Of a stretch of DNA of 15,015 nucleotides, positions 2,576 to 14,994 are shown in pieces. The notes beneath the pieces were generated by a model. The model was not told the origin of the DNA, did no database searches, and worked only from the letters and a program-made list of their open reading frames with translations. This DNA is from Hyphomicrobiales bacterium (GTDB lineage: Bacteria; Pseudomonadota; Alphaproteobacteria; Rhizobiales; Aestuariivirgaceae): NCBI GenBank assembly GCA_027031305.1, contig JALVRJ010000186.1, positions 1 through 15,015 on the forward strand. Direction: 5' to 3'. The translations under genes were made by a program, and so were the position numbers. Position 1 is the stretch's first letter, and every line of letters starts with the position of its first letter.

Positions 2576-3781
2576 TCAGAAATCGATCAACAGCACGTCC
2601 ACCGTCGCGCCCGCTGGCAGGGAGGGCGCGTGGGGCGGGCGCACCAGCAGGCCGTCGGCCTCCGCCAGGGCGCGCAACATGGCGCTGTCCTGACGGGAAT
2701 GGGGCAGGGCGAGTGTCTCGCCCGTTTTCTCGTCGCGTTGCAGGCGCACGCGCAGGTAGTCCTGGCGTTCGTCGTTTTGCGGCAGATCCGTGGCCAGTTT
2801 CGCGCCGATGGCGCGCGGCGCCATGTCGGTGCCCAGCAGCTTCGCCATCAGCGGCCGCAGGTAGATGAAGGCACACACCAGCGCCGAAACGGGATTGCCG
2901 GGCAGCCCCAGGATGCGCTGTTTTCCACGCTGGGCGAACATGAGCGGCTTGCCCGGGCGCTGCGCCACCTTCCAGAAGTCGCGCCCGATGCCCAGCAGCT
3001 CGAAGGCATCGCCGATGAAGTCGTAATCACCGACGGAAGCCCCACCGATGGTGACCAGCACGTCGGCCTCGCGCCCACGCTCGATGGCCGCCGCGATGGC
3101 CTCCACGTCATCGGGTTGCAGGCCCAGGTCCATCACCTCGCCGCCATGCTGTTCCACGAAGGCGGCCAGCCCGAAGTTGTTCGAGGCGATGATCTGGTCC
3201 GCGCGCGGCTCCTCGCCGGGCAGCACCAGCTCGTCGCCACAGGCCAGGATGGCCACCCTCGGCTTGCGCCGCACCATCAGGGTGGGGCGGTTCAGCGAGG
3301 CCGCCAGGTTGATCTGACGCGCCCCCAGCCGTTGCCCCGCCCGCAACAGGGTTTCCCCCGCCTTGTAGTCCATGCCACGGCGGCGGATGAAGCGTCCTGG
3401 CGTGGCGGGGGCAAGCACCCGCACCACCTCGCCCTCGCGCTCGGCATCTTCCTGGATGACGATGGCGTCCGCCCCGGCCGGCACCGGGGAGCCGGTGTAG
3501 ATGCGCACGGCCTCGCCGGGGCCGATGGTGACGTTCGCCGCGTGGCCCGCCGGGGCCTCGGCGATGACGCGCAGCTCCACCGGCACGTCTTGCACATCCT
3601 CCGCCCGCACCGCGTAGCCGTCCATGGACGAGGCGTCGAAGGGCGGCATGTCGCGCATGGCCTTCACGTCCTCGGCCAGCACGCGCCCCGTGGCGCCGCG
3701 CAACGGCACCTCTTCCGCAGACAGGGGGGCAACGTCTTTTAGCACGCGGTGCAGGGCTTCCTCGACGGGCATCAGGGGCAT
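2576..3781 (-). CDS. moeA: Molybdopterin molybdotransferase MoeA
   Basis: MoeA inserts molybdate into adenylylated molybdopterin in the last step of molybdenum cofactor synthesis, in the cytoplasm. The 401-residue length is normal for the family. Visible motifs are PPFDASSMDGYAV (about 47-58), LACGDELVLPGE (about 179-190), TIGGASVGDYDF (about 244-255), where most relatives have GGVSVG, and LGLPGNPVSA (about 291-300). Of the clustered starts GTG 3787, ATG 3781 and ATG 3772, I chose ATG 3781 because GAGG ends five bases before it. It lies 130 bases downstream of moaC on the same strand, separated by a REP-like palindrome. moaC-moeA is a common cofactor gene pair. Confidence 0.95.
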   Translation of the reverse strand: MPLMPVEEALHRVLKDVAPLSAEEVPLRGATGRVLAEDVKAMRDMPPFDASSMDGYAVRAEDVQDVPVELRVIAEAPAGHAANVTIGPGEAVRIYTGSPVPAGADAIVIQEDAEREGEVVRVLAPATPGRFIRRRGMDYKAGETLLRAGQRLGARQINLAASLNRPTLMVRRKPRVAILACGDELVLPGEEPRADQIIASNNFGLAAFVEQHGGEVMDLGLQPDDVEAIAAAIERGREADVLVTIGGASVGDYDFIGDAFELLGIGRDFWKVAQRPGKPLMFAQRGKQRILGLPGNPVSALVCAFIYLRPLMAKLLGTDMAPRAIGAKLATDLPQNDERQDYLRVRLQRDEKTGETLALPHSRQDSAMLRALAEADGLLVRPPHAPSLPAGATVDVLLIDF

Positions 3782-3811
3782 GGGCACCTCGCTTGCAATC
3801 GTTGATCTTCC

Positions 3812-3896
3812 CCGTCACCCAGGCGAAAGCCGGAGACTCGCGCAACGGGCTCGTGTGGTAGTGAACCGGGCCCCGGCTTTCGCCAGGGATGACGAG
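3812..3896. repeat. REP-like palindrome (GGCGAAAGCCGG type) between moaC and moeA
   Basis: Imperfect inverted repeat: the left arm 3813-3840 carries CAGGCGAAAGCCGGAGACTCG and the right arm 3864-3895 carries CCCCGGCTTTCGCCAGGGATGACG. It is the same family as the element at 9042-9125. In reading frames this widespread proteobacterial repeat yields VTPAQAGV / IPAFAGMT-like peptides, which explains some spurious frames here. It fills nearly all of the moaC-moeA spacer. Confidence 0.8.
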
Positions 3897-3911
3897 AAGG
3901 TGTCGTTTTCC

Positions 3912-4394
3912 TCATTCTTGCGCGATGAAATGGCCGGACTTGCCGCCCGCCTTCTCCAGCAGGCGCACGTCGGTGATGCGCACGTCGCGCTGCATGGCCT
4001 TCACCATGTCGTAGATGGTCAGGCAGGCGACGGAAACGGCGGTCAGCGCCTCCATCTCCACCCCCGTCTTGCCGTCGCACTGCACCGTGGCCCGCACGTG
4101 AATGACGCAAACCGCCTCGTCCACCTCGAAGTCCACCGCCACCTTGGTGATCATCAGCGGGTGGCACAACGGAATCAGCTCGGAAGTCTTTTTCGCCGCC
4201 ATGATGCCGGCGATCCGCGCGGTGGCCAGCACGTCGCCCTTCTTCACCGTGTTGTCCAGCACCGCGCGCAGCGTCTCGGCGTTCAACCGCACCACGCCGC
4301 CGGCGCGCGCCACGCGCCGCGTGACGGCCTTCTCCGACACGTCCACCATGCGCGCCGCGCCGGTTTCGTCGATGTGGGTGAGTTTGCTCGTCAT
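3912..4394 (-). CDS. moaC: Cyclic pyranopterin monophosphate synthase MoaC
   Basis: MoaC converts the MoaA product (3',8-cyclo-7,8-dihydro-GTP) to cyclic pyranopterin monophosphate, the first committed intermediate of molybdenum cofactor. The 160-residue length is exactly typical. Visible signatures are [20 protein letters not shown] (about 49-68, with Lys51 at the position of the catalytic Lys), ELIPLCHPL (about 72-80), [22 protein letters not shown] (about 109-130, with the active-site Asp of YDM) and GKSGHF (about 151-156). I chose the ATG at 4394, which gives the standard [20 protein letters not shown]-terminus. A longer frame to 4433 adds a non-family leader. The ribosome site is only a G-rich stretch. 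Confidence 0.95.
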
Positions 4395-4478
4395 CCCGCC
4401 GCCCCGATGTGCCCATTGTCGGTTTCCCCGCATAGTGCGGGCGGGCGCGGCAAAGTCAAGCCGGGGCTCACTCGGGGC

Positions 4479-7529: not shown

Positions 7530-7859
7530 ATGACGGATGTGAAGGCGGTGTTCATCTACACCACGTTGCCCGACGCCAATTCGGCCCGCGAGATGGGCGA
7601 GGCGCTGGTGAAGGAGCGGCTGGCGGCCTGCGTGAACATCTATCCCGCCATGCGATCCATCTACGAGTGGCAGGGGCGGCTGGAGCACGACGAGGAGGTG
7701 GGCATGATCGTCAAGACCGTGCCCGGGCGCGCCGCCGACACGGCCCGGCGCATTGGCGAGCTGCATCCCTACGAGGTGCCGGCCATTCTGCATCTGCCGG
7801 TGACGGAAGCCAACGCCCCCTACCTGGAATGGCTCCGCCAGCAGACGCGGACCGTGTGA
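7530..7859 (+). CDS. cutA: Divalent-cation tolerance protein CutA
   Basis: A 109-residue protein with full family length: MTDVKAVFIYTTLPDANSAREMGEALVKERLAACVNIYPAMRSIYEWQG in outline, then VKTVPGRAADTARRIGELHPYEVPAILHLPV. The ERLAACVNI and HPYEVPAI blocks are diagnostic of CutA1, a small trimeric ferredoxin-like protein. It has been linked in E. coli to copper and divalent-cation tolerance, although its biochemical role is still debated. A very strong ribosome site (GGGAGGAGGAAGGG) ends a few bases before the ATG. It is divergent from cobW with 136 bases between the starts, and convergent with the membrane protein gene that ends at 7997. Confidence 0.93.
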   Translation: MTDVKAVFIYTTLPDANSAREMGEALVKERLAACVNIYPAMRSIYEWQGRLEHDEEVGMIVKTVPGRAADTARRIGELHPYEVPAILHLPVTEANAPYLEWLRQQTRTV

Positions 7860-7996: not shown

Positions 7997-9010
7997 TCAG
8001 TGGAACATCACGAGGTGCGAACGCCAGATGGCGTAAAACGCAGCCAGTCCGAACAGCGCCAGCAACAGCGCCGAGGCCGCCGTCCACCGCCGCAGCCGTT
8101 CGGGCAGGGCCGCGCGCACGCTTTCCGGCATCGGCAGAATGCCCAGGACGAACACCCCCAGCGCCAGGCCACTGCCGAAGAACAGCGGCGCATACAGCGC
8201 GTAGCCGATGAATCCGTATTGCGGCTTGAGGATGCAGAAGGGACAGTGGTGGTTCGGCGTCTCATAGACGTAGGGCGAGATGACCGAGATGATGGCCACG
8301 ATGGCCAGCGGGAAGAACAGCGCCCCCAGCAGGCCATAGACGGCCGCCACCCTCTTGCCCGCGCCTCCGCCGACGCCCCAGACGAGGCCCGCCAGCACCA
8401 GCAGGGCGCTCAGCGCTCCGAACAGCGCGATCAACGTCGGCTTCGCCGGAAAGGTGGAAATATCCGCCTGCACGCCCGATCCCTCCGGCGTGAACAGGCG
8501 CGAGCAACACGAGGTGATGACGTTCGGATCGAGGTTCAGGAAATACAGCCATTCCATCACCCCCGCCGTCACCACCACTGGCGCCAGCGCCAGCAACAGC
8601 CCATATTTGTGGCGGATGAACGGATAATCCTTGCCCAGGTTGTCCGCCGTGTTCATCAGCAGCCACGCCAGCGCGCCGAAGAACACCGCCACCTGCGACA
8701 GGAAGGCCGGCATTCCCCACTGGTTCACGTTCAGCGTGCCCACCGCACACATCGCACCCGTGAACAGCACCGCCATTCGGTCGGCGTTGTGCACGAACAG
8801 GGCCAGCGCCGGCACTTGCAACAGCATGATGAGCATCCACACGGTGGAAACCAGGTGCGTTCCGCGTTCCAGCCGGATCTGCCGCGCATGGCCGCTTTCC
8901 AGGTTCCAGTGGCGCAGCAGATAGGCCGCGAACGGCGCCGCCGCAAGCACCGCGACCATGGTCAGCGTGGCCAGCAGCAACAATGCCATGATGGGCGGGT
9001 CGAAGATCAT
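7997..9010 (-). CDS. Multi-span membrane protein with SCC and HHCPFC motifs, function unknown
   Basis: A 337-residue, strongly hydrophobic inner-membrane protein with about eight or nine predicted helices: roughly 5-32, 53-74, 79-95, 102-121, 137-158, 191-213, 221-248, 268-293 and 310-329. Two cysteine motifs stand out: TSCCSRLF (C168, C169) after the fifth helix and ETPNHHCPFCILK (H254, H255, C256, C259) after the seventh. Both lie in loops that may be on the same membrane face. Such pairs suggest a metal-binding or thiol-redox site, but this is inference. Start ATG 9010 has AAAGG about five bases upstream. It is the last gene of the NosL/ABC cassette, 160 bases after the ATPase gene, with a REP-like palindrome in the gap. 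I do not recognise a named family. Confidence 0.8.
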   Translation of the reverse strand: MIFDPPIMALLLLATLTMVAVLAAAPFAAYLLRHWNLESGHARQIRLERGTHLVSTVWMLIMLLQVPALALFVHNADRMAVLFTGAMCAVGTLNVNQWGMPAFLSQVAVFFGALAWLLMNTADNLGKDYPFIRHKYGLLLALAPVVVTAGVMEWLYFLNLDPNVITSCCSRLFTPEGSGVQADISTFPAKPTLIALFGALSALLVLAGLVWGVGGGAGKRVAAVYGLLGALFFPLAIVAIISVISPYVYETPNHHCPFCILKPQYGFIGYALYAPLFFGSGLALGVFVLGILPMPESVRAALPERLRRWTAASALLLALFGLAAFYAIWRSHLVMFH

Positions 9011-9041
9011 CGCACCTTTCCGCCTGCCGATATTTTCTCGC

Positions 9042-9125
9042 TCGTCACCCCGGCGCAAGCCGGGGTCTCGTGCCGCATGTTCATGGGTATGCCACACGAG
9101 ATTCCGGCTTTCGCCGGAATGACGA
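9042..9125. repeat. REP-like palindrome (VTPAQAGV/IPAFAGMT type)
   Basis: Left arm 9042-9072 carries CACCCCGGCGCAAGCCGGGG plus TCTCGTG. Right arm 9095-9125 carries CACGAG plus ATTCCGGCTTTCGCCGGAAT. Together they make an imperfect but long inverted repeat with a 22-base loop, and a partial unit (GGCCGGAATGACG, 9130-9142) follows. It is the same family as 3812-3896. It lies between the ATPase stop and the start of the membrane protein gene. Confidence 0.88.
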
Positions 9126-9170
9126 GGGAGGCCGGAATGACGTGGGTAACATTTGCGGGAGAAGAGGGCC

Positions 9171-9860
9171 TCATCTCTCCACCTCCGTCACCGATGTGAT
9201 TTTCCCGTCGCGCATTTCCGCCACCACGTCCACCACGTCCGAATCGATGATGCGCGGGTCGTGGGTGGTGATCACCAGCGACTTGCCATCCGCCTTCAAC
9301 ATGCGGATTTCCTCCAGCAGTTGTTCCACCAGCGCCGAATCGAGGTTGGCCGTCGGCTCGTCGGCCAGCACCCATTCCGGATCGTTGATCAGTGCCCGCG
9401 CGATGGCCACGCGCTGCGTCTCGCCACCCGAGAGCAGCTCCACCTTCATGCCCGCCCGGTGTTCCAGCCGCAGGCGCCTCAGCGCCGCCATGGCGCGCTC
9501 GCGCAGCTCCCGGTAGTCCGGCGCCGCCGGATAGGCGGGTAACATCACGTTGTCCACCACGCTCAGGCCCCGGATCAGGTGAAAGCGCTGGAACACGAAC
9601 CCGAATCGCTCGCGGCGCATCTTCGCCATGAAATGCTCCGGCAGGGCGGAGATGATCTCGCCGTCGAGCAATATGCGCCCCGAGGTCGGCCGCGCCAGGC
9701 AGCCGATGAGGCTGAGCAATGTCGTCTTGCCGGAGCCCGACGGCCCTTTCAGCACGGTCACCGCATGATCGGGAATGCGCAAGGTAACGTCGTTCAGCGC
9801 CCGCACCTCGTTGGGCCGGCCCTCGTTGTAGACGCGGCTGACGTTTTCCACCTCGATCAT
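9171..9860 (-). CDS. ABC transporter ATP-binding protein, LolD/MacB type
   Basis: A 229-residue nucleotide-binding subunit. Motifs in order are Walker A GPSGSGKTT (39-47), Q-loop FQRFHLI (90-96), signature LLSGGETQRVAIARAL (142-157), Walker B VLADEPTANLD (164-174) and switch ITTHD (197-201). The type is that of LolD, MacB and FtsE, partners of FtsX-fold permeases. It therefore belongs with the permease at 9874-11022, whose stop lies 13 bases before this ATG. The ribosome site is GGGGGCGAGG. In this class ATP hydrolysis usually drives mechanical work across the envelope rather than solute import. The substrate here is unknown; the NosL-type neighbours suggest a copper-related role. Confidence 0.92.
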   Translation of the reverse strand: MIEVENVSRVYNEGRPNEVRALNDVTLRIPDHAVTVLKGPSGSGKTTLLSLIGCLARPTSGRILLDGEIISALPEHFMAKMRRERFGFVFQRFHLIRGLSVVDNVMLPAYPAAPDYRELRERAMAALRRLRLEHRAGMKVELLSGGETQRVAIARALINDPEWVLADEPTANLDSALVEQLLEEIRMLKADGKSLVITTHDPRIIDSDVVDVVAEMRDGKITSVTEVER

Positions 9861-9873
9861 CGCCTCGCCCCCA

Positions 9874-11022
9874 TCAACGCATGACCACTTCCGGGTCGGT
9901 AATGGCCGCCTTCCACACCGGTACCAGGGTCGCCGCGATGAAGGGCACGATGGTCAGCATCGCCAGCGTCACCAGTTGCAGCCGGTCGATTTGCGGGGTC
10001 AGCGGCGCCTGCGGATAGAGCACCGCCCAGCCCTTCAGCACCGGCGCCAGCACCCCGGCCTGGAAAAGGAATACGTGCGCATAGGCCGCCACCGCGCCGA
10101 TGAGGAAGGCGAACAGCGCCAGCAGCGCCCCTTCCCACAGCTTCATCGCCAGGATGTCCGAGGTGTCCCAGCCCAGCGCCTTCAGGATGCCGATCTCGCG
10201 CCGTTCTTCCGCCGACAGGCCGGAAGCCTTGTCAAAGGCGAAAATGGCGAATGCCGCCAGCGATGCCGCAAGCATCGCCTGCAACACGCCCTCGCGCCAT
10301 GAGAAGACGTTCTCATAGGTGCGCAGGATGTCTTCGCGCGTCACCACCCGCGCGTTGGGCAGGCGCTGGCTTATCTTGTTGGCGATGGTCGCGACCTCGC
10401 GCCGGTTGCGTACTTCCAACGCGATGTCGGTGAAGCCCGCGTCCCGTGGCAGGTTGAAGAATTCGCGGAAATCGGCCTCCGACAGCAACACCAGGTCATG
10501 GGTCAGCAGGGCGGAATCGTCGGAAAGGATGCGCTTCGCCCGCAGCTTGAACAGCTTGCCGTCGGGCCGCAGCAACAGCAGGTTGCGCAGCTTTTCCACC
10601 TCGCGCACCCGGGCCACGCCGGCCCCGACGATGACCTCGCCCGGCGCCACCGCCAGCGACGGGTCGGAGCCGTCCGCCACCATGACCGTGTAGTTGGCGC
10701 CGTTGCCCTGGTCGTAGAAATAGCCCCACAGCCGTCCACGCACATTGCGCGTGCCGCGAATGCCCTTCAGCTTGTCCACCCAGTCCGCCGGCGCCAGAGC
10801 ATGACGCCCCAGCACCAGGTTCTGCACCATCACTTCCGGCGCGAACTTCAGCGCCCGCTTCGCCTCGAAGCGCACCGCGCTGCCGAAGAAGCTGACGCTG
10901 GCCAGCAAGAACACCACCAGGGTGAACACCACCAGCAGCACGAGATTGCGCCACTTGCGCCGCCACATGGCGGCCAGCGTGTAGTCCATGAGATACCGCT
11001 GTCGTGCCAGCCAGTGAAACAT
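9874..11022 (-). CDS. ABC transporter permease, FtsX/MacB fold
   Basis: A 382-residue inner-membrane permease. It has one membrane helix at about 27-49 after a basic N-terminus (MWRRKWRNLVLL), a periplasmic domain of roughly 200 residues, then the FtsX domain with three helices (about 245-268, 290-315 and 350-370). The conserved coupling segment KASGLSAEERREIGILKALGWDTSDI lies between helices two and three; it is characteristic of LolC/E, MacB and FtsX permeases. The ATG (11022) overlaps the upstream stop by one base (TGATG), and GGGGAGAGG lies upstream, so translational coupling is likely. It is not the ABC-2 type (NosY) permease of the classical nos system. Confidence 0.9.
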   Translation of the reverse strand: MFHWLARQRYLMDYTLAAMWRRKWRNLVLLVVFTLVVFLLASVSFFGSAVRFEAKRALKFAPEVMVQNLVLGRHALAPADWVDKLKGIRGTRNVRGRLWGYFYDQGNGANYTVMVADGSDPSLAVAPGEVIVGAGVARVREVEKLRNLLLLRPDGKLFKLRAKRILSDDSALLTHDLVLLSEADFREFFNLPRDAGFTDIALEVRNRREVATIANKISQRLPNARVVTREDILRTYENVFSWREGVLQAMLAASLAAFAIFAFDKASGLSAEERREIGILKALGWDTSDILAMKLWEGALLALFAFLIGAVAAYAHVFLFQAGVLAPVLKGWAVLYPQAPLTPQIDRLQLVTLAMLTIVPFIAATLVPVWKAAITDPEVVMR

Positions 11023-11387
11023 CAGCGCCTCTCCCCATGTGCGGTTTCCACCTTCAGGGTGCCTGTCGCCGGCAGGTGAGGGGGCGGCGAAACGAGCGAC
11101 CCGGCCGGAAAGTGCTCCATCGACAACGGTGCGTCCTGAAACGGCGTGAACAGGTCGGCCATGGCCGGATGCCGGGTGTAACGTGCCTCGGTGAACAGCG
11201 CCAGGTCCGTCAGTCCCAGCGCCCGGGTCAGATACGTGGGTGATCGATCGTCCTGAAGGGGTGCCTTCGCCGCCGTCACCGCCAGCCACGAATGCCCCAG
11301 CGCCGCCACCAGCGCCACGAACAGCAATGCCAGCAGCGACAGCGCCCAGGTGGAGCGGCGGATATGGGGGGCTTCACGCAGGGTCAT
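11022..11387 (-). CDS. Small membrane-anchored periplasmic protein of unknown function
   Basis: A 121-residue protein with a basic N-terminus (MTLREAPHIRRSTW) and one hydrophobic helix at about residues 13-34 (ALSLLALLFVALVAALGHSWLAV). It continues with a probably periplasmic domain of about 85 residues containing TDLALFTEARYTRHPAMADLF and SMEHFPAGSLVSPPP. There are no cysteines. Met and His residues in the exported part could bind metal, but this is not established. The start overlaps the end of the upstream NosL gene by four bases (ATGA) and its stop overlaps the permease start by one base, so it is embedded in the operon. I do not recognise the family. An accessory subunit of the permease is the simplest inference. 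Confidence 0.8.
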   Translation of the reverse strand: MTLREAPHIRRSTWALSLLALLFVALVAALGHSWLAVTAAKAPLQDDRSPTYLTRALGLTDLALFTEARYTRHPAMADLFTPFQDAPLSMEHFPAGSLVSPPPHLPATGTLKVETAHGERR

Positions 11388-11977
11388 TTCAGCTCCTTGC
11401 CGTGCACGATGAACCTGCCGTCGTCCAGTCCTTTCAGCATCGCCATGTCGATATCCTCGAAGCGCACGATGGCCTTGCCACGATGGTCCTTCATGAAGGC
11501 CTTGGCGTCATACATGTCCGGGTGCGGAATCAACTCGTGCCCCATCGGCCCGGTGACGTCCGAACCGATGACGTAGAGCGCCTTGCGCGCGTCGATCATC
11601 TCCACGGAATAATAGGCCGTCACGCCGAAGTCCTTCACCTCCGCTTGCGTGTGGCCATGCTGGTCGTATTTCTTCATGTCCAGCCAGAACTTGAAGGCGT
11701 CCTTCGCCCCGTCGAAATGCGCCACGTGGCCATCCTTGAACACCATGGTGGCCACCCATTCGTGATAGCGCGCCACGAACATGCCGCACACCGGGCAGCG
11801 GTCGTTTTCCTTCGGTGCCGGCAAGTGCAGCACCGGCGCCGTATTCTTGCCTTCCTGCGCCAGCGCCATCTGGCCACACAGGCTGGCCGCGCCCACCGCC
11901 AGGCCAAGCAACAGCCACCGACGCGACAAGCCGGGAGCATGGGTATGAGAACGATGATTGCGCATGGAGCTCGCCAT
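11384..11977 (-). CDS. NosL-like copper chaperone, exported
   Basis: A 197-residue exported protein of the NosL family. It has an N-terminal signal with LSRRWLLLGLAVGAAS (18-32), which resembles both a Tat motif and a lipoprotein-like region, although the following LCG is not a canonical lipobox. The metal motif DRCPVCGMFVARY (59-71) holds the CxxCGM Cu(I) site known from NosL. Further conserved blocks are GHVAHFDGAKDAFKFW (83-98) and AYYSVEMIDARKALYVIGSDVTGPMGHELIP (121-151), typical of NosL C-terminal halves. Start ATG 11977 is used; an ATG at 11965 with GGCGAG upstream is also possible and would not remove the signal. NosL delivers Cu(I) to nitrous oxide reductase in denitrifiers, but no nosZ is in this window. 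Confidence 0.88.
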   Translation of the reverse strand: MASSMRNHRSHTHAPGLSRRWLLLGLAVGAASLCGQMALAQEGKNTAPVLHLPAPKENDRCPVCGMFVARYHEWVATMVFKDGHVAHFDGAKDAFKFWLDMKKYDQHGHTQAEVKDFGVTAYYSVEMIDARKALYVIGSDVTGPMGHELIPHPDMYDAKAFMKDHRGKAIVRFEDIDMAMLKGLDDGRFIVHGKELK

Positions 11978-12059
11978 TGTTCACGTCATTCAGAGAAGGG
12001 AAGGGTGGAGACGCTACAGCGCCCCCACCCATCGAGATGAATGCTCGCGCGATGAAGGT

Positions 12060-12695
12060 CTATTTCATCTTTTCCTTCATCATCTTCATCTTTTTCATCA
12101 TGTGGGCGCGCTTTTCCGCCCGCCGCTTGCGAGACATTGCGCTGTCCTTGCCGAGGTCGCAATAGGCGGCCTGCAAGGCGGCGTCGAAATTCACCACCTC
12201 GCCACCCTGCGCCGCCGCCTTGGCCTTGTCGGAGAAGGCCCACTTGCGGCGCATGGTCATGGTCCCGGGCTTGCCCGGCACCAGGGAATAATAGGCCTTG
12301 TCCACCTCGATGAGCGGCTTGATCTTGGCCTCCGCGCCAGCGTCGCCTACCCAGATCTTCTTCGGCCCGCGATCAAGATTGATGGCGAAGGCCACCGCCA
12401 CGCAACGGATGGAACAGGTGCCCTCCGCCGTGCCATCCTCGTATTGGATGAGATGGCGCGTATGGCTCCACATCTTGCGCGACATGCCGCAATAGGGGCA
12501 GCGCGGGTATTTCTTCAGTTCGTCCTTCGTTGGGTTGTCATCCTTCTTCACCGGCGAGACGACGCCATGCTCCTTCTGCCACTCCCAGGGAGGCGTCATT
12601 TTCATCTTCATGGCCATGCCCGTGCGAGCGCCCGCGGCCAGTGCCAGCGCGCCCAGCGAGGCCGCGCCGAGGAGTTCCCTGCGATCGATCTTCAT
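12060..12695 (-). CDS. NosL-family protein with Tat-like signal and methionine-rich tail
   Basis: A 211-residue exported protein. The N-terminus MKIDRRELLGAASLGALALA fits a twin-arginine signal (RR at 5-6), with cleavage probably near residue 28 (GMA). The mature part begins with Met-rich MKMKM. CPYCGMSRKMWSHTRH (66-81) gives the NosL-type CxxCGM site. GTCSIRCVAVAFAINL (92-107) adds a CxxxC pair, and KPGTMTMRRKWAF (142-154) is a conserved NosL-family block. The C-terminus carries a cluster of Met and Lys (HMMKKMKMMKEKMK, 198-211), suggestive of Cu(I) binding. Start ATG 12695 has AGGAGAAGG just upstream. It is a different subfamily from the protein at 11384-11977, and both are in one operon. 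Confidence 0.85.
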   Translation of the reverse strand: MKIDRRELLGAASLGALALAAGARTGMAMKMKMTPPWEWQKEHGVVSPVKKDDNPTKDELKKYPRCPYCGMSRKMWSHTRHLIQYEDGTAEGTCSIRCVAVAFAINLDRGPKKIWVGDAGAEAKIKPLIEVDKAYYSLVPGKPGTMTMRRKWAFSDKAKAAAQGGEVVNFDAALQAAYCDLGKDSAMSRKRRAEKRAHMMKKMKMMKEKMK

Positions 12696-12725
12696 GAATC
12701 CTTCTCCTGATTGTCCCAATCTCCA

Positions 12726-12756
12726 CTTGCGCGCAAAAAATCAATGGCTTGCGCGC
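12726..12756. promoter_or_regulatory. Paired operator-like repeats upstream of the Tat NosL-like gene
   Basis: CTTGCGCGC occurs at 12726-12734 and again at 12748-12756, a spacing of 22 bases or about two helical turns. The first copy forms part of a perfect palindrome TTGCGCGCAA (12727-12736). A perfect TTGACA on the minus strand (12778-12773) lies upstream. No good -10 box follows at standard spacing, so a regulated or activator-dependent promoter is possible. The matching regulator is not known. Confidence 0.35.
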
Positions 12757-12798
12757 GAAACCGGATTCGCATTGTCAACACGATGAGCGGAAGAGCAA

Positions 12799-13227
12799 TC
12801 AGGCGGGTGGAGCGCGTATGCGCTGGTGTCGGACGAGTGCAAGGGGATTCCGCGTCTGTTGACGCGGCACGGGGATCGTCGCCAGCACCACGTTGGGCGC
12901 GGGCAATACCGGCTCCGCCTGTGGTTGGGCGAAAGGCGAAGCCAGGGGCGAATTGCAAATGGGGCAGTAAACGGAGGCCTTGGCCTGTCCCGCATCCTCC
13001 GTGTTGTCGTTTGCCGCCACGCCGGGAAGGGCTTGCGGGGGCAGCTCCACCAGGCCGCTGGGCGTGCAGATCTGGAATACCCAGCTGTTCGCGTTACCCG
13101 AGCCATTGGCCGCGGCCAGGGGAGCGGCGGCCAGCGCCGCGGTGTGAATGGCGCTGAGCAGCAACGAGGCCAGCAGCGTGTAAACCGCTGCCACGGCCAC
13201 CCATTTCTGCCTGCTCAGCCTGTGCAT
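12799..13227 (-). CDS. DUF2946-type exported protein with Cys motifs
   Basis: A 142-residue protein with an N-terminal signal or anchor (KWVAVAAVYTLLASLLLSAIHTAALAAA, about 8-35) followed by a periplasmic part. ICTPSGLVEL (53-62) and VYCPICNSP (87-94) are the two cysteine-containing motifs typical of DUF2946 proteins. Those proteins are often found next to copper-related genes such as TonB copper receptors or NosL-like genes. The C-terminal part is Pro/Arg-rich and low in recognisable structure. Start ATG 13227 has AAGG about nine bases upstream. It is the first gene of the cassette, 103 bases ahead of the Tat NosL-like gene. Copper binding is inferred from the motifs and neighbours. Confidence 0.72.
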   Translation of the reverse strand: MHRLSRQKWVAVAAVYTLLASLLLSAIHTAALAAAPLAAANGSGNANSWVFQICTPSGLVELPPQALPGVAANDNTEDAGQAKASVYCPICNSPLASPFAQPQAEPVLPAPNVVLATIPVPRQQTRNPLALVRHQRIRAPPA

Positions 13228-14918: not shown

Positions 14919-14994
14919 GGGCGGTTAGCTCAGTTGGTAGAGCATCTCGTTTACACCGAGAGGGTCGGCAGTTCGAGTCTGTCACCGCCCACCA
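14919..14994 (+). tRNA. tRNA-Val, anticodon UAC
   Basis: A 76-base cloverleaf with an encoded CCA end. Acceptor arm GGGCGGT (14919-14925) pairs with ACCGCCC (14984-14990). The D arm is GCTC...GAGC, and the anticodon stem is TCTCG/CGAGA around loop TTTACAC, giving anticodon TAC (14952-14954). The T arm carries GTTCGAGTC. It decodes GUA and GUG-type valine codons. U8 is present, so it is a possible substrate for ThiI. Confidence 0.97.

Follow-up and report, generated by a model that had tools for sequence, protein, structure and literature searches.

We found that four adjacent genes of an alphaproteobacterial contig, here called D, E, F, and G, form an operon core whose conservation goes beyond chance. 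They encode an FtsX-type ABC permease (E), an ABC ATPase (F), and two proteins for which no family model scored over its cut-off (D and G), and they follow a pair of NosL-type proteins (B and C) and a DUF2946 protein (A) in the window, by which we mean the whole stretch of 15,015 nucleotides that was analyzed. We consider the chances about even that the operon supplies copper to respiratory cuproenzymes, in many cases the clade II nitrous oxide (N2O) reductase, and does so beside the NosDFYL system and not as its replacement. A more specific reading, which we regard as possible rather than probable, is that D-E-F-G would be an undescribed ATP-driven machine for copper transfer. Its FtsX-type (mechanotransmission) ABC pair, together with the Cys5-His2 membrane protein G, the small protein D, and the NosL pair, would deliver copper to respiratory enzymes of the periplasm across several phyla, most often the clade II N2O reductase, and in some alphaproteobacteria the machine would be switched by a copper-sensing nascent peptide.

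Gene content and conservation of the cassette

All seven minus-strand open reading frames of the cassette are present (Table 1), and some of their ends overlap, as described in an earlier note on this DNA: C and D share 4 bases, and D and E share 1. F and G are separated by 160 bp.

TABLE 1 Features of the cassette and its surroundings in the window
Feature	Position	Strand	Description
Gene A	12799..13227	-	142 aa, DUF2946; candidate CruR-type copper-sensing leader
Intergenic gap, leader A to B	12696..12798	-	103 bp
Gene B	12060..12695	-	211 aa, divergent NosL-type; CPYCGM and CSxxC
Gene C	11384..11977	-	197 aa, NosL family, CPVCGM
Gene D	11022..11387	-	121 aa, N-terminal anchor, conserved motif with HFPxGS end
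Gene E	9874..11022	-	382 aa, FtsX-type ABC permease, own clade
Gene F	9171..9860	-	229 aa, ABC ATPase nearest LolD/MacB/FtsE models, under their cut-offs
Gene G	7997..9010	-	337 aa, about eight predicted helices; Cys/His set in predicted periplasmic loops
cutA	7530..7859	+	Convergent with the cassette

Conservation was assessed in 80 loci chosen on E alone, the best 80 of 265 found, so the sample is tilted to close kin. D, F, and G were present in 79, 78, and 74 of these loci, always on the strand of E, and D-E-F-G was contiguous in 65 of the 80, across several phyla; the gene order is thus kept outside the source genome. Some of the 15 loci without contiguous D-E-F-G were misses at locus ends. 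The carriers include culturable, nonpathogenic strains such as Azospira oryzae DSM 21223 (L086) and Sedimenticola selenatireducens DSM 17993 (L073). Among relatives, G was found in 11 of 12 carriers of E (a contig end cuts the locus of the twelfth) versus 0 of 48 noncarriers. A plasmid collection searched with E and G gave no match at E ≤ 1e-5. For the neighboring cutA and cobW genes, which the earlier note had counted toward a metal theme, none of the 80 loci had a flanking homologue at E ≤ 1e-15; they were rejected as cassette members, and their position beside it is probably incidental.

Gene C belongs to the NosL family, scoring 106.7 bits against the Pfam NosL model (cut-off, 24) and carrying the CXM motif. 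The CxxCGM motif occurs in both B and C, and the two had been taken together as NosL proteins; this stands for C by Pfam and for B by profile only, B of the window having no Pfam match at E ≤ 1. B is NosL-like in this sense: its alignment with C by hhalign gave 95.9%, its profile matched the NosL structure 7og7 in the PDB (E, 1.2e-5), and proteins at the B position in other genomes exceed the Pfam NosL cut-off (e.g., 29.8 bits in G003). The alignments held 28 of 42 (B) and 26 of 47 (C) gathered sequences, plus those of the window. An RR pair near the N terminus of B suggests Tat export. Both B and C were located within 9 kb of E and on its strand in 44 of the 80 loci (31 of the 42 with full flanks), and wherever both lay on one strand they were adjacent (45/45 loci).

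For D, the only Pfam match was DUF6535, at 16.2 bits (cut-off, 23.9), and G had no Pfam match at E ≤ 1; when the profiles of both proteins were searched against PDB sequences, nothing was returned at E ≤ 10. The D alignment comprised 42 of 68 gathered sequences, and that of G all 58 sequences passing the length filter, each with the addition of the window's own. The SCC and HHCPFC motifs reported earlier in the polytopic protein are both present in G, and its predicted periplasmic loops hold C88, C168, C169, H254, H255, C256, and C259. The five cysteines and H254 are invariant among the 59 sequences, whereas H255 is present in 98% of them.

Co-occurrence with N2O reductase and cytochrome oxidases

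The presence of the cassette is associated with nosZ, both among relatives (10 of 12 carriers versus 9 of 48 noncarriers; p = 5.6e-5) and in a sample of the phylum (5 of 6 carriers versus 46 of 293; p = 6e-4); these tests ignore phylogeny, and nine of the 12 carrier relatives belong to one genus. Overall, with nosZ searched for 49 of the 80 loci, 40 of 65 carriers had the gene and 25 gave none. Frames of at least 760 aa were present in 32 of the 40 nosZ carriers, although length stands in for the NosZ clade only as a proxy; in the phylum sample they were found in 8 of the 51 genomes with nosZ, three of them carriers. When typed, long frames were Sec dependent (5/5) and short frames Tat dependent (2/2). 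The nosZ of carriers is mostly of the long form, the one that typed as Sec dependent (clade II).

This enrichment could mean that the cassette belongs to the nos system as an accessory, in a clade II variant serving N2O reductase alone, and physical linkage speaks for the same reading: the nos operon continues into D-E-F-G in L076, nosZ comes after G in L092, and nosD and nosY precede D-E-F-G in L061, while two carriers scored as nosZ negative (G005 and G380) contain a nosY and a NosL. However, nos genes occurred in the fetched flanks of 4 of the 80 loci (on the strand of E in 3), and nosZ in only 3, so the link is not confined to nosZ operons. With the gene order also kept in other genomes, neither of the two outcomes that the earlier note had named as refuting its reading holds. 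The 25 carriers without nosZ include the named isolates Rhodobacter sp. TJ_12 (L049 = G363) and Thioclava (L056 = G367 and L059 = G369). In the other direction, the cassette is missing from G017, G022, and G030, although their nosZ frames are long; hence, NosZ does not need it. We consider an exclusive nos role unlikely. Replacement of NosDFY by the cassette was rejected, since the genome of the window codes for nosZ, nosY, and another NosL elsewhere and G003 has nosD beside nosZ; in several carriers, the contig with nosZ also encodes an additional NosL. In comparisons with family models, E matched FtsX only, and no NosD family was found among the seven genes.

Alternatively, the cassette might assemble the copper site of cbb3 or CuA-type cytochrome oxidases. 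Of 45 carriers, 42 gave a CcoN match, several nosZ-less ones included, and in 34 it exceeded the cut-off; many of the fetched flanks of the 80 loci contain TlpA-like (30 loci) or Sco (17) genes. The same flanks also hold genes for copper P-type ATPases (21 loci) and DsbD_2 (20), and one member of each of the four families was typed. Such copper-handling genes were found beside an operon in which, as had been proposed, an FtsX-type and not an ABC-2 permease accompanies NosL-type proteins. Nevertheless, ccoN does not separate carriers from noncarriers among the relatives (12/12 versus 41/48; p = 0.19), and a role for cbb3 only was rejected on this ground; the CcoN model at E ≤ 1e-3 also matches 6 of 14 control genomes, and the methanotrophs G400 and G403 reached only about 1e-7. 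A role for CuA only fails as well, unless drafts hide genes, because 14 of 45 carriers gave no COX2/CuA (PF00116) match. Dedicated oxidase assembly seems to us quite improbable.

The ABC pair

The permease and the ATPase together belong to the FtsX-type ABC superfamily, with E scoring 35.5 bits against Pfam FtsX (cut-off, 25.5) and F 105.6 bits against ABC_tran (cut-off, 25). F had been called a LolD-type ATPase; it is indeed nearest to the LolD, MacB, and FtsE models, but its 190.1 bits fall short of the LolD equivalog cut-off (307.75), as do its 186 bits of that of MacB (966). MacB carries ATPase and permease within one chain, and E and F are separate genes.

By analogy with LolCDE, the substrate of such a pair might be an anchored copper protein, with NosL-type or other lipoproteins being released or moved. 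E and F are nearest to the LolCE and LolD models, and LolC was the nearest PDB match of E. However, E scores only 33.4 bits on the LolCE equivalog model (cut-off, 362.45), on which a separate LolCE of the same genome reaches 474.4 bits, and in the permease tree against LolC/E that had been proposed as a check, built with the E of the window and of 17 of the 80 loci, it forms its own clade. Since L022, L023, and the L019/L020 pair sit on long branches, conclusions from this tree are limited to that separation. The assignment of E to LolC/E was thus rejected. LolCDE is not known to include a counterpart of G with its Cys/His set. We think a Lol-like role very improbable.

Leader gene and upstream boxes

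The identification of A as a DUF2946 protein held (25.2 bits; Pfam cut-off, 23.7). It heads the operon and has CxxC at residue 88 and RAPP at 138, 46 residues apart (about 45 in CruR-type leaders), which makes it a candidate CruR-type copper-sensing leader. A was detected in only 5 of the 80 loci. The CruR-type reading of A, the status of D-E-F-G as the core to which A is so rarely joined, and the nosZ enrichment were absent from the earlier note.

Upstream of E, 12 FNR-type boxes were found in 11 of the 80 loci versus at most 3 for each of 59 permuted palindromes; a comparison of rates was set aside, as it mixed coding and intergenic DNA. In the window, two one-mismatch sites (0.69 expected) were not above chance, being reached by 30 of 200 shuffles, and an FNR-type box there was dropped.

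A copper export or resistance system is the least probable reading: copper P-type ATPase genes are found in the flanks mentioned above, but no efflux partner (RND or outer membrane factor) is among the seven genes, the Sco, TlpA-like, and DsbD_2 neighbors are of the assembly type, and the nosZ and FNR-type box enrichment suit respiration better. DUF2946 proteins are frequently found ahead of efflux genes (PMC9973294); against this, the RAPP and spacing of A resemble CruR, which permits expression at low copper (PMC9426467).

Proposed function

In the copper-supply reading, the machine would sit in the inner membrane and work at its periplasmic face. When copper is scarce, leader A would permit expression; Cu(I) would be held in the periplasm by C and B, and ATP hydrolysis by F would move the periplasmic domain of E and D, so that Cu(I) would pass between the NosL-type pair, G with its Cys/His set, and the apo-enzyme. 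Most often the enzyme served would be the clade II N2O reductase, next to NosDFYL, and carriers without nosZ may serve another respiratory copper enzyme, such as a cbb3 oxidase. The conserved core, the copper-handling genes of the flanks, the nosZ enrichment, the leader motifs, and the FNR-type boxes of other loci favor this reading; the carriers without nosZ, the long nosZ frames in genomes lacking the cassette, the rarity of nosZ in the flanks, and the few loci with A count against it.

The open-licence literature searched gave no description of an FtsX-type ABC system with NosL, and we know of no FtsX-type ABC machine in metal-site assembly. If the proposal is true, these machines would enter that field, and D and G would receive a first function. 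According to PMC6530538, clade II N2O reducers are an N2O sink and copper shortage halts N2O reduction; a copper-supply machine enriched in these organisms would give a testable explanation of their ability to cope at low copper.

Comparison with known systems

The cassette shares with NosDFYL an ABC ATPase-permease pair, a NosL chaperone (C by Pfam) and, often, a genome with nosZ; it differs in its FtsX-type permease and in that no NosD was found among its seven genes. With the Sco/TlpA assembly of oxidase copper sites, the link is one of neighborhood, seen in the flanks of other loci (17 and 30 of 80), whereas no Sco or TlpA is among the seven genes here; to our knowledge, an FtsX-type ABC pair is no part of that pathway. 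Leader A has the CxxC, the RAPP, their 46-residue spacing, and the 103-bp gap to the next gene in common with the CruR/CutF DUF2946 leaders, as described in PMC9426467, but a NosL/ABC operon stands behind it, and as a candidate regulator it could respond to copper with either sign. Finally, E-F share with LolCDE, MacB, FtsEX, and DevBCA a Pfam FtsX permease and an ATPase nearest to the LolD, MacB, and FtsE models; unlike all of these, they score below every equivalog cut-off, branch in a clade of their own, and are accompanied by D, G, and the NosL-type pair.

Gene content and conservation of the cassette

The window is the entire 15,015-base contig C186 of a draft genome (2.0 Mb, 438 contigs, 87% complete), and the seven minus-strand genes that the earlier note had claimed were found there as seven minus-strand open reading frames. 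Pfam assigned the leader A to DUF2946, C to NosL, E to FtsX and F to the ABC ATPases, while B and the polytopic protein G had no match at E ≤ 1 and the small anchored protein D had a single match, under that family's cut-off. From its sequence, B is a divergent NosL-type protein: the profile comparison of B with C gave 95.9%, its profile matched the PDB NosL entry 7og7 at 1.2e-5, and its counterparts beside the cassette elsewhere exceed the Pfam NosL cut-off (e.g., 29.8 bits in G003 and 59.3 bits in G364).

Coordinates of the cassette and of other features in the window and in related loci
Feature	Sequence	Positions	Strand
moeA-like and moaC-like genes (by eye) with adjoining FAH-family-like gene; presumably ordinary neighbours	window	2576-4433	
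Cassette, genes A to G	window	7997-13227	minus
F-G gap, 160 bp	window	9011-9170	
GCCGGAATG copies in the gap	window	9113; 9131	
tRNA-Val (tac), close to contig end	window	14919-14994	
C-D-E-F-G in genome G060	L134	3953-8542	
Sco-like pair and fusion gene (Geobacter MAG)	L087	6827-9673	
Sco-like pair and fusion gene (Pelobacter MAG)	L088	6733-9677	
504-aa protein matching NosL (Methylomonas)	L110	8535-10049	
Small-protein cluster 10, example	L091	12468-12848	
Small-protein cluster 12, example	L101	8795-9055	
Cluster 13 (208-aa family), example	L053	13970-14596	

A profile of E found at least 265 relatives in genome contigs, and the best 80, selected on E alone, were taken as loci. Of these 80 loci, the best of at least 265, 79 contain D, 78 contain F and 74 contain G, without exception on the strand of E; D-E-F-G were strictly contiguous in 65, some of the 15 misses being at locus ends. 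B and C lie either before or after this core; both are on the same strand within 9 kb of E in 44 of the 80 loci (31 of the 42 with full flanks), and they adjoin each other in all 45 of the best 80 loci that have both on one strand. The permease is found at E ≤ 1e-20 in six of 299 sampled Pseudomonadota genomes, the window's own counted. It was high-scoring in 12 of 60 relatives, and G occurred in 11 of these carriers and in none of the 48 others; in G007, the sole carrier with no G match, a contig end truncates E. The order C-D-E-F-G is kept in G060 despite only distant similarity of E, and the full A-to-G order recurs in G003 (locus L128), of the same genus as the window; L034 and L037 appear to be G005 and G008, also of this genus.

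Conserved residues

Simple hydropathy gives G about eight helices; C88, C168, C169, H254, C256 and C259 are present in 59 of 59 sequences and H255 in 98%. These residues fall in loops 2, 4 and 6, which are predicted to face the periplasm by the positive-inside rule because they are poor in Lys/Arg (means of 0.85, 1.59 and 0.97, vs 4.31, 3.20, 2.44 and 2.25 in loops 1, 3, 5 and 7). D combines an N-terminal anchor with a motif ending in HFPxGS. Among 29 B-type sequences, C66, Y68, C69, G70, M71, C94, S95 and C98 are invariant, and R5 and R6, conserved in at least 90%, suggest that B may be exported by Tat. C carries CPVCGM; the clade II form of NosL is CXXCXM according to PMC6530538.

Association with respiratory copper enzymes

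We searched for nosZ with PF18764. It was present in 51 of the 299 Pseudomonadota, 5 of the 6 carriers included (p 6e-4), and among the 60 relatives in 10 of 12 carriers vs 9 of 48 others (p 5.6e-5), phylogeny being ignored in both tests. In a set of 67 genomes (65 carriers and the non-carriers G002 and G010), nosZ occurred in 40, every one a carrier, and was not found by this search in 25 carriers. Two genomes scored as negative, G005 and G380, hold nosY and a NosL, so that 40 is a lower bound. The NosZ frames of the 40 reach at least 760 aa in 32 and 643-698 aa in five, with three at 663, 705/382 and 716; of the 51 nosZ genomes of the phylum sample, 8 had frames of at least 760 aa, three of these 8 being carriers. 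All five long NosZ typed were Sec-dependent and both short ones Tat-dependent. A strict link is opposed by the 25 carriers in which no nosZ was found and by G017, G022 and G030, in which a long nosZ occurs without the cassette.

The cbb3 oxidase gene ccoN did not discriminate (12 of 12 carriers vs 41 of 48 others; p 0.19, phylogeny ignored). Among 45 carriers, CcoN was matched in 42 (over the cut-off in 34) and COX2/CuA in 31, several only within NosZ; not one of nosZ, CcoN and COX2/CuA was universal. The methanotroph carriers G400 and G403 had no nosZ match, and CcoN only at about 1e-7.

Replacement of the classical NosDFYL machinery by the cassette was rejected, since the window's genome has nosZ (contig C305) and nosY next to a second NosL (C354) elsewhere; the cassette would act in parallel. 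In G003, nosZ and nosD lie together, and a NosL match beyond those at the cassette was found on the nosZ contig of carriers such as G003, G004, G006, G047, G371, G374 and G379 (under the cut-off in the last). No NosL match was obtained in G002 or G010, which belong to the window's genus and are non-carriers.

Flanking genes

The fetched flanks of the 80 loci (best of at least 265) contained TlpA-like proteins (30), copper P-type ATPases (21), DsbD_2 (20) and Sco (17), names that rest on one typed member per cluster. nos genes were found in four of the 80. L076 has a nos operon (nosZ, nosD and nosY identified by search, along with cytochrome and ferredoxin genes) that continues on one strand into D-E-F-G; L092 carries nosZ and nosD downstream of G; the core of L061 is preceded by nosD and nosY; and L075 has the start of nosZ on the opposite strand.

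Immediately upstream of the core in L087 and L088 are two Sco-like proteins and a cytochrome c/periplasmic-binding fusion (one Sco-like protein and the fusion typed, in L087); no nosZ was found in these two genomes. The NosL-matching protein of L110 is encoded downstream of the cassette. Clusters 10 and 12 occur in 13 and 9 of the 80 flanks, and cluster 13 in 10; in L052, L053 and L058, for example, cluster 13 precedes the copper P-type ATPase. The single members scanned had no Pfam match (cluster 10) and none at E ≤ 1e-3 (cluster 13).

Regulation

In the leader A, CxxC lies at 88 and RAPP at 138, with 46 intervening residues. The spacing is 45-47 in A and five homologues, and RAPP is present in five of these six sequences (RGPP in L036), the leaders of L056 and L059 being near-copies of each other. 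According to PMC9426467, the spacing in CruR is 45 residues, constant to within one or two, and expression proceeds without copper and terminates once copper is sensed; PMC9973294 describes CutF, which works in the opposite sense. Given the CruR-like motifs and spacing, A is probably a copper-sensing leader, whose response may run in either sense. With a threshold of 20 bits, A was detected in 5 of the best 80 of at least 265 loci, a count that may miss diverged copies.

In the 3-kb regions upstream of E, TTGAYNNNNRTCAA has 12 sites, spread over 11 of the 80 loci (best of at least 265), vs a maximum of 3 and a mean of 0.34 for 59 permuted palindromes, a pattern consistent with FNR-type control of some family members. 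The window has no exact site, and the two sites with one mismatch do not exceed chance. Its F-G gap, in which no inverted repeat was found, holds a GCCGGAATG pair that is perhaps a small dispersed repeat; F and G overlap elsewhere (e.g., L037 and L087).

Proposed function and comparison with known systems

Most likely, the cassette encodes a machine that supplies copper to respiratory copper enzymes, with clade II N2O reductase as its most frequent client. The operon would be made when copper is scarce and, judging from the parts, ATP hydrolysis by F would power the hand-over of copper via E, D and G.

Along E, a helix near residue 27 is followed by a long soluble stretch and by further helices from residue 245. 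The ABC pair differs from LolCDE: E scored 33 bits against the LolCE model (cut-off, 362) and F 190 bits against LolD (cut-off, 308), both far under, while the genome's own LolCE reached 474 bits. The tree put the window's E together with those of 17 of the 80 loci in a single group (99/97) that excludes 18 further FtsX-type proteins, most of them similar to LolC/E. No description of such a system came up in the open-licence literature searched. An ABC machine with NosL chaperones is an already known type, and this one includes component proteins of no established family.
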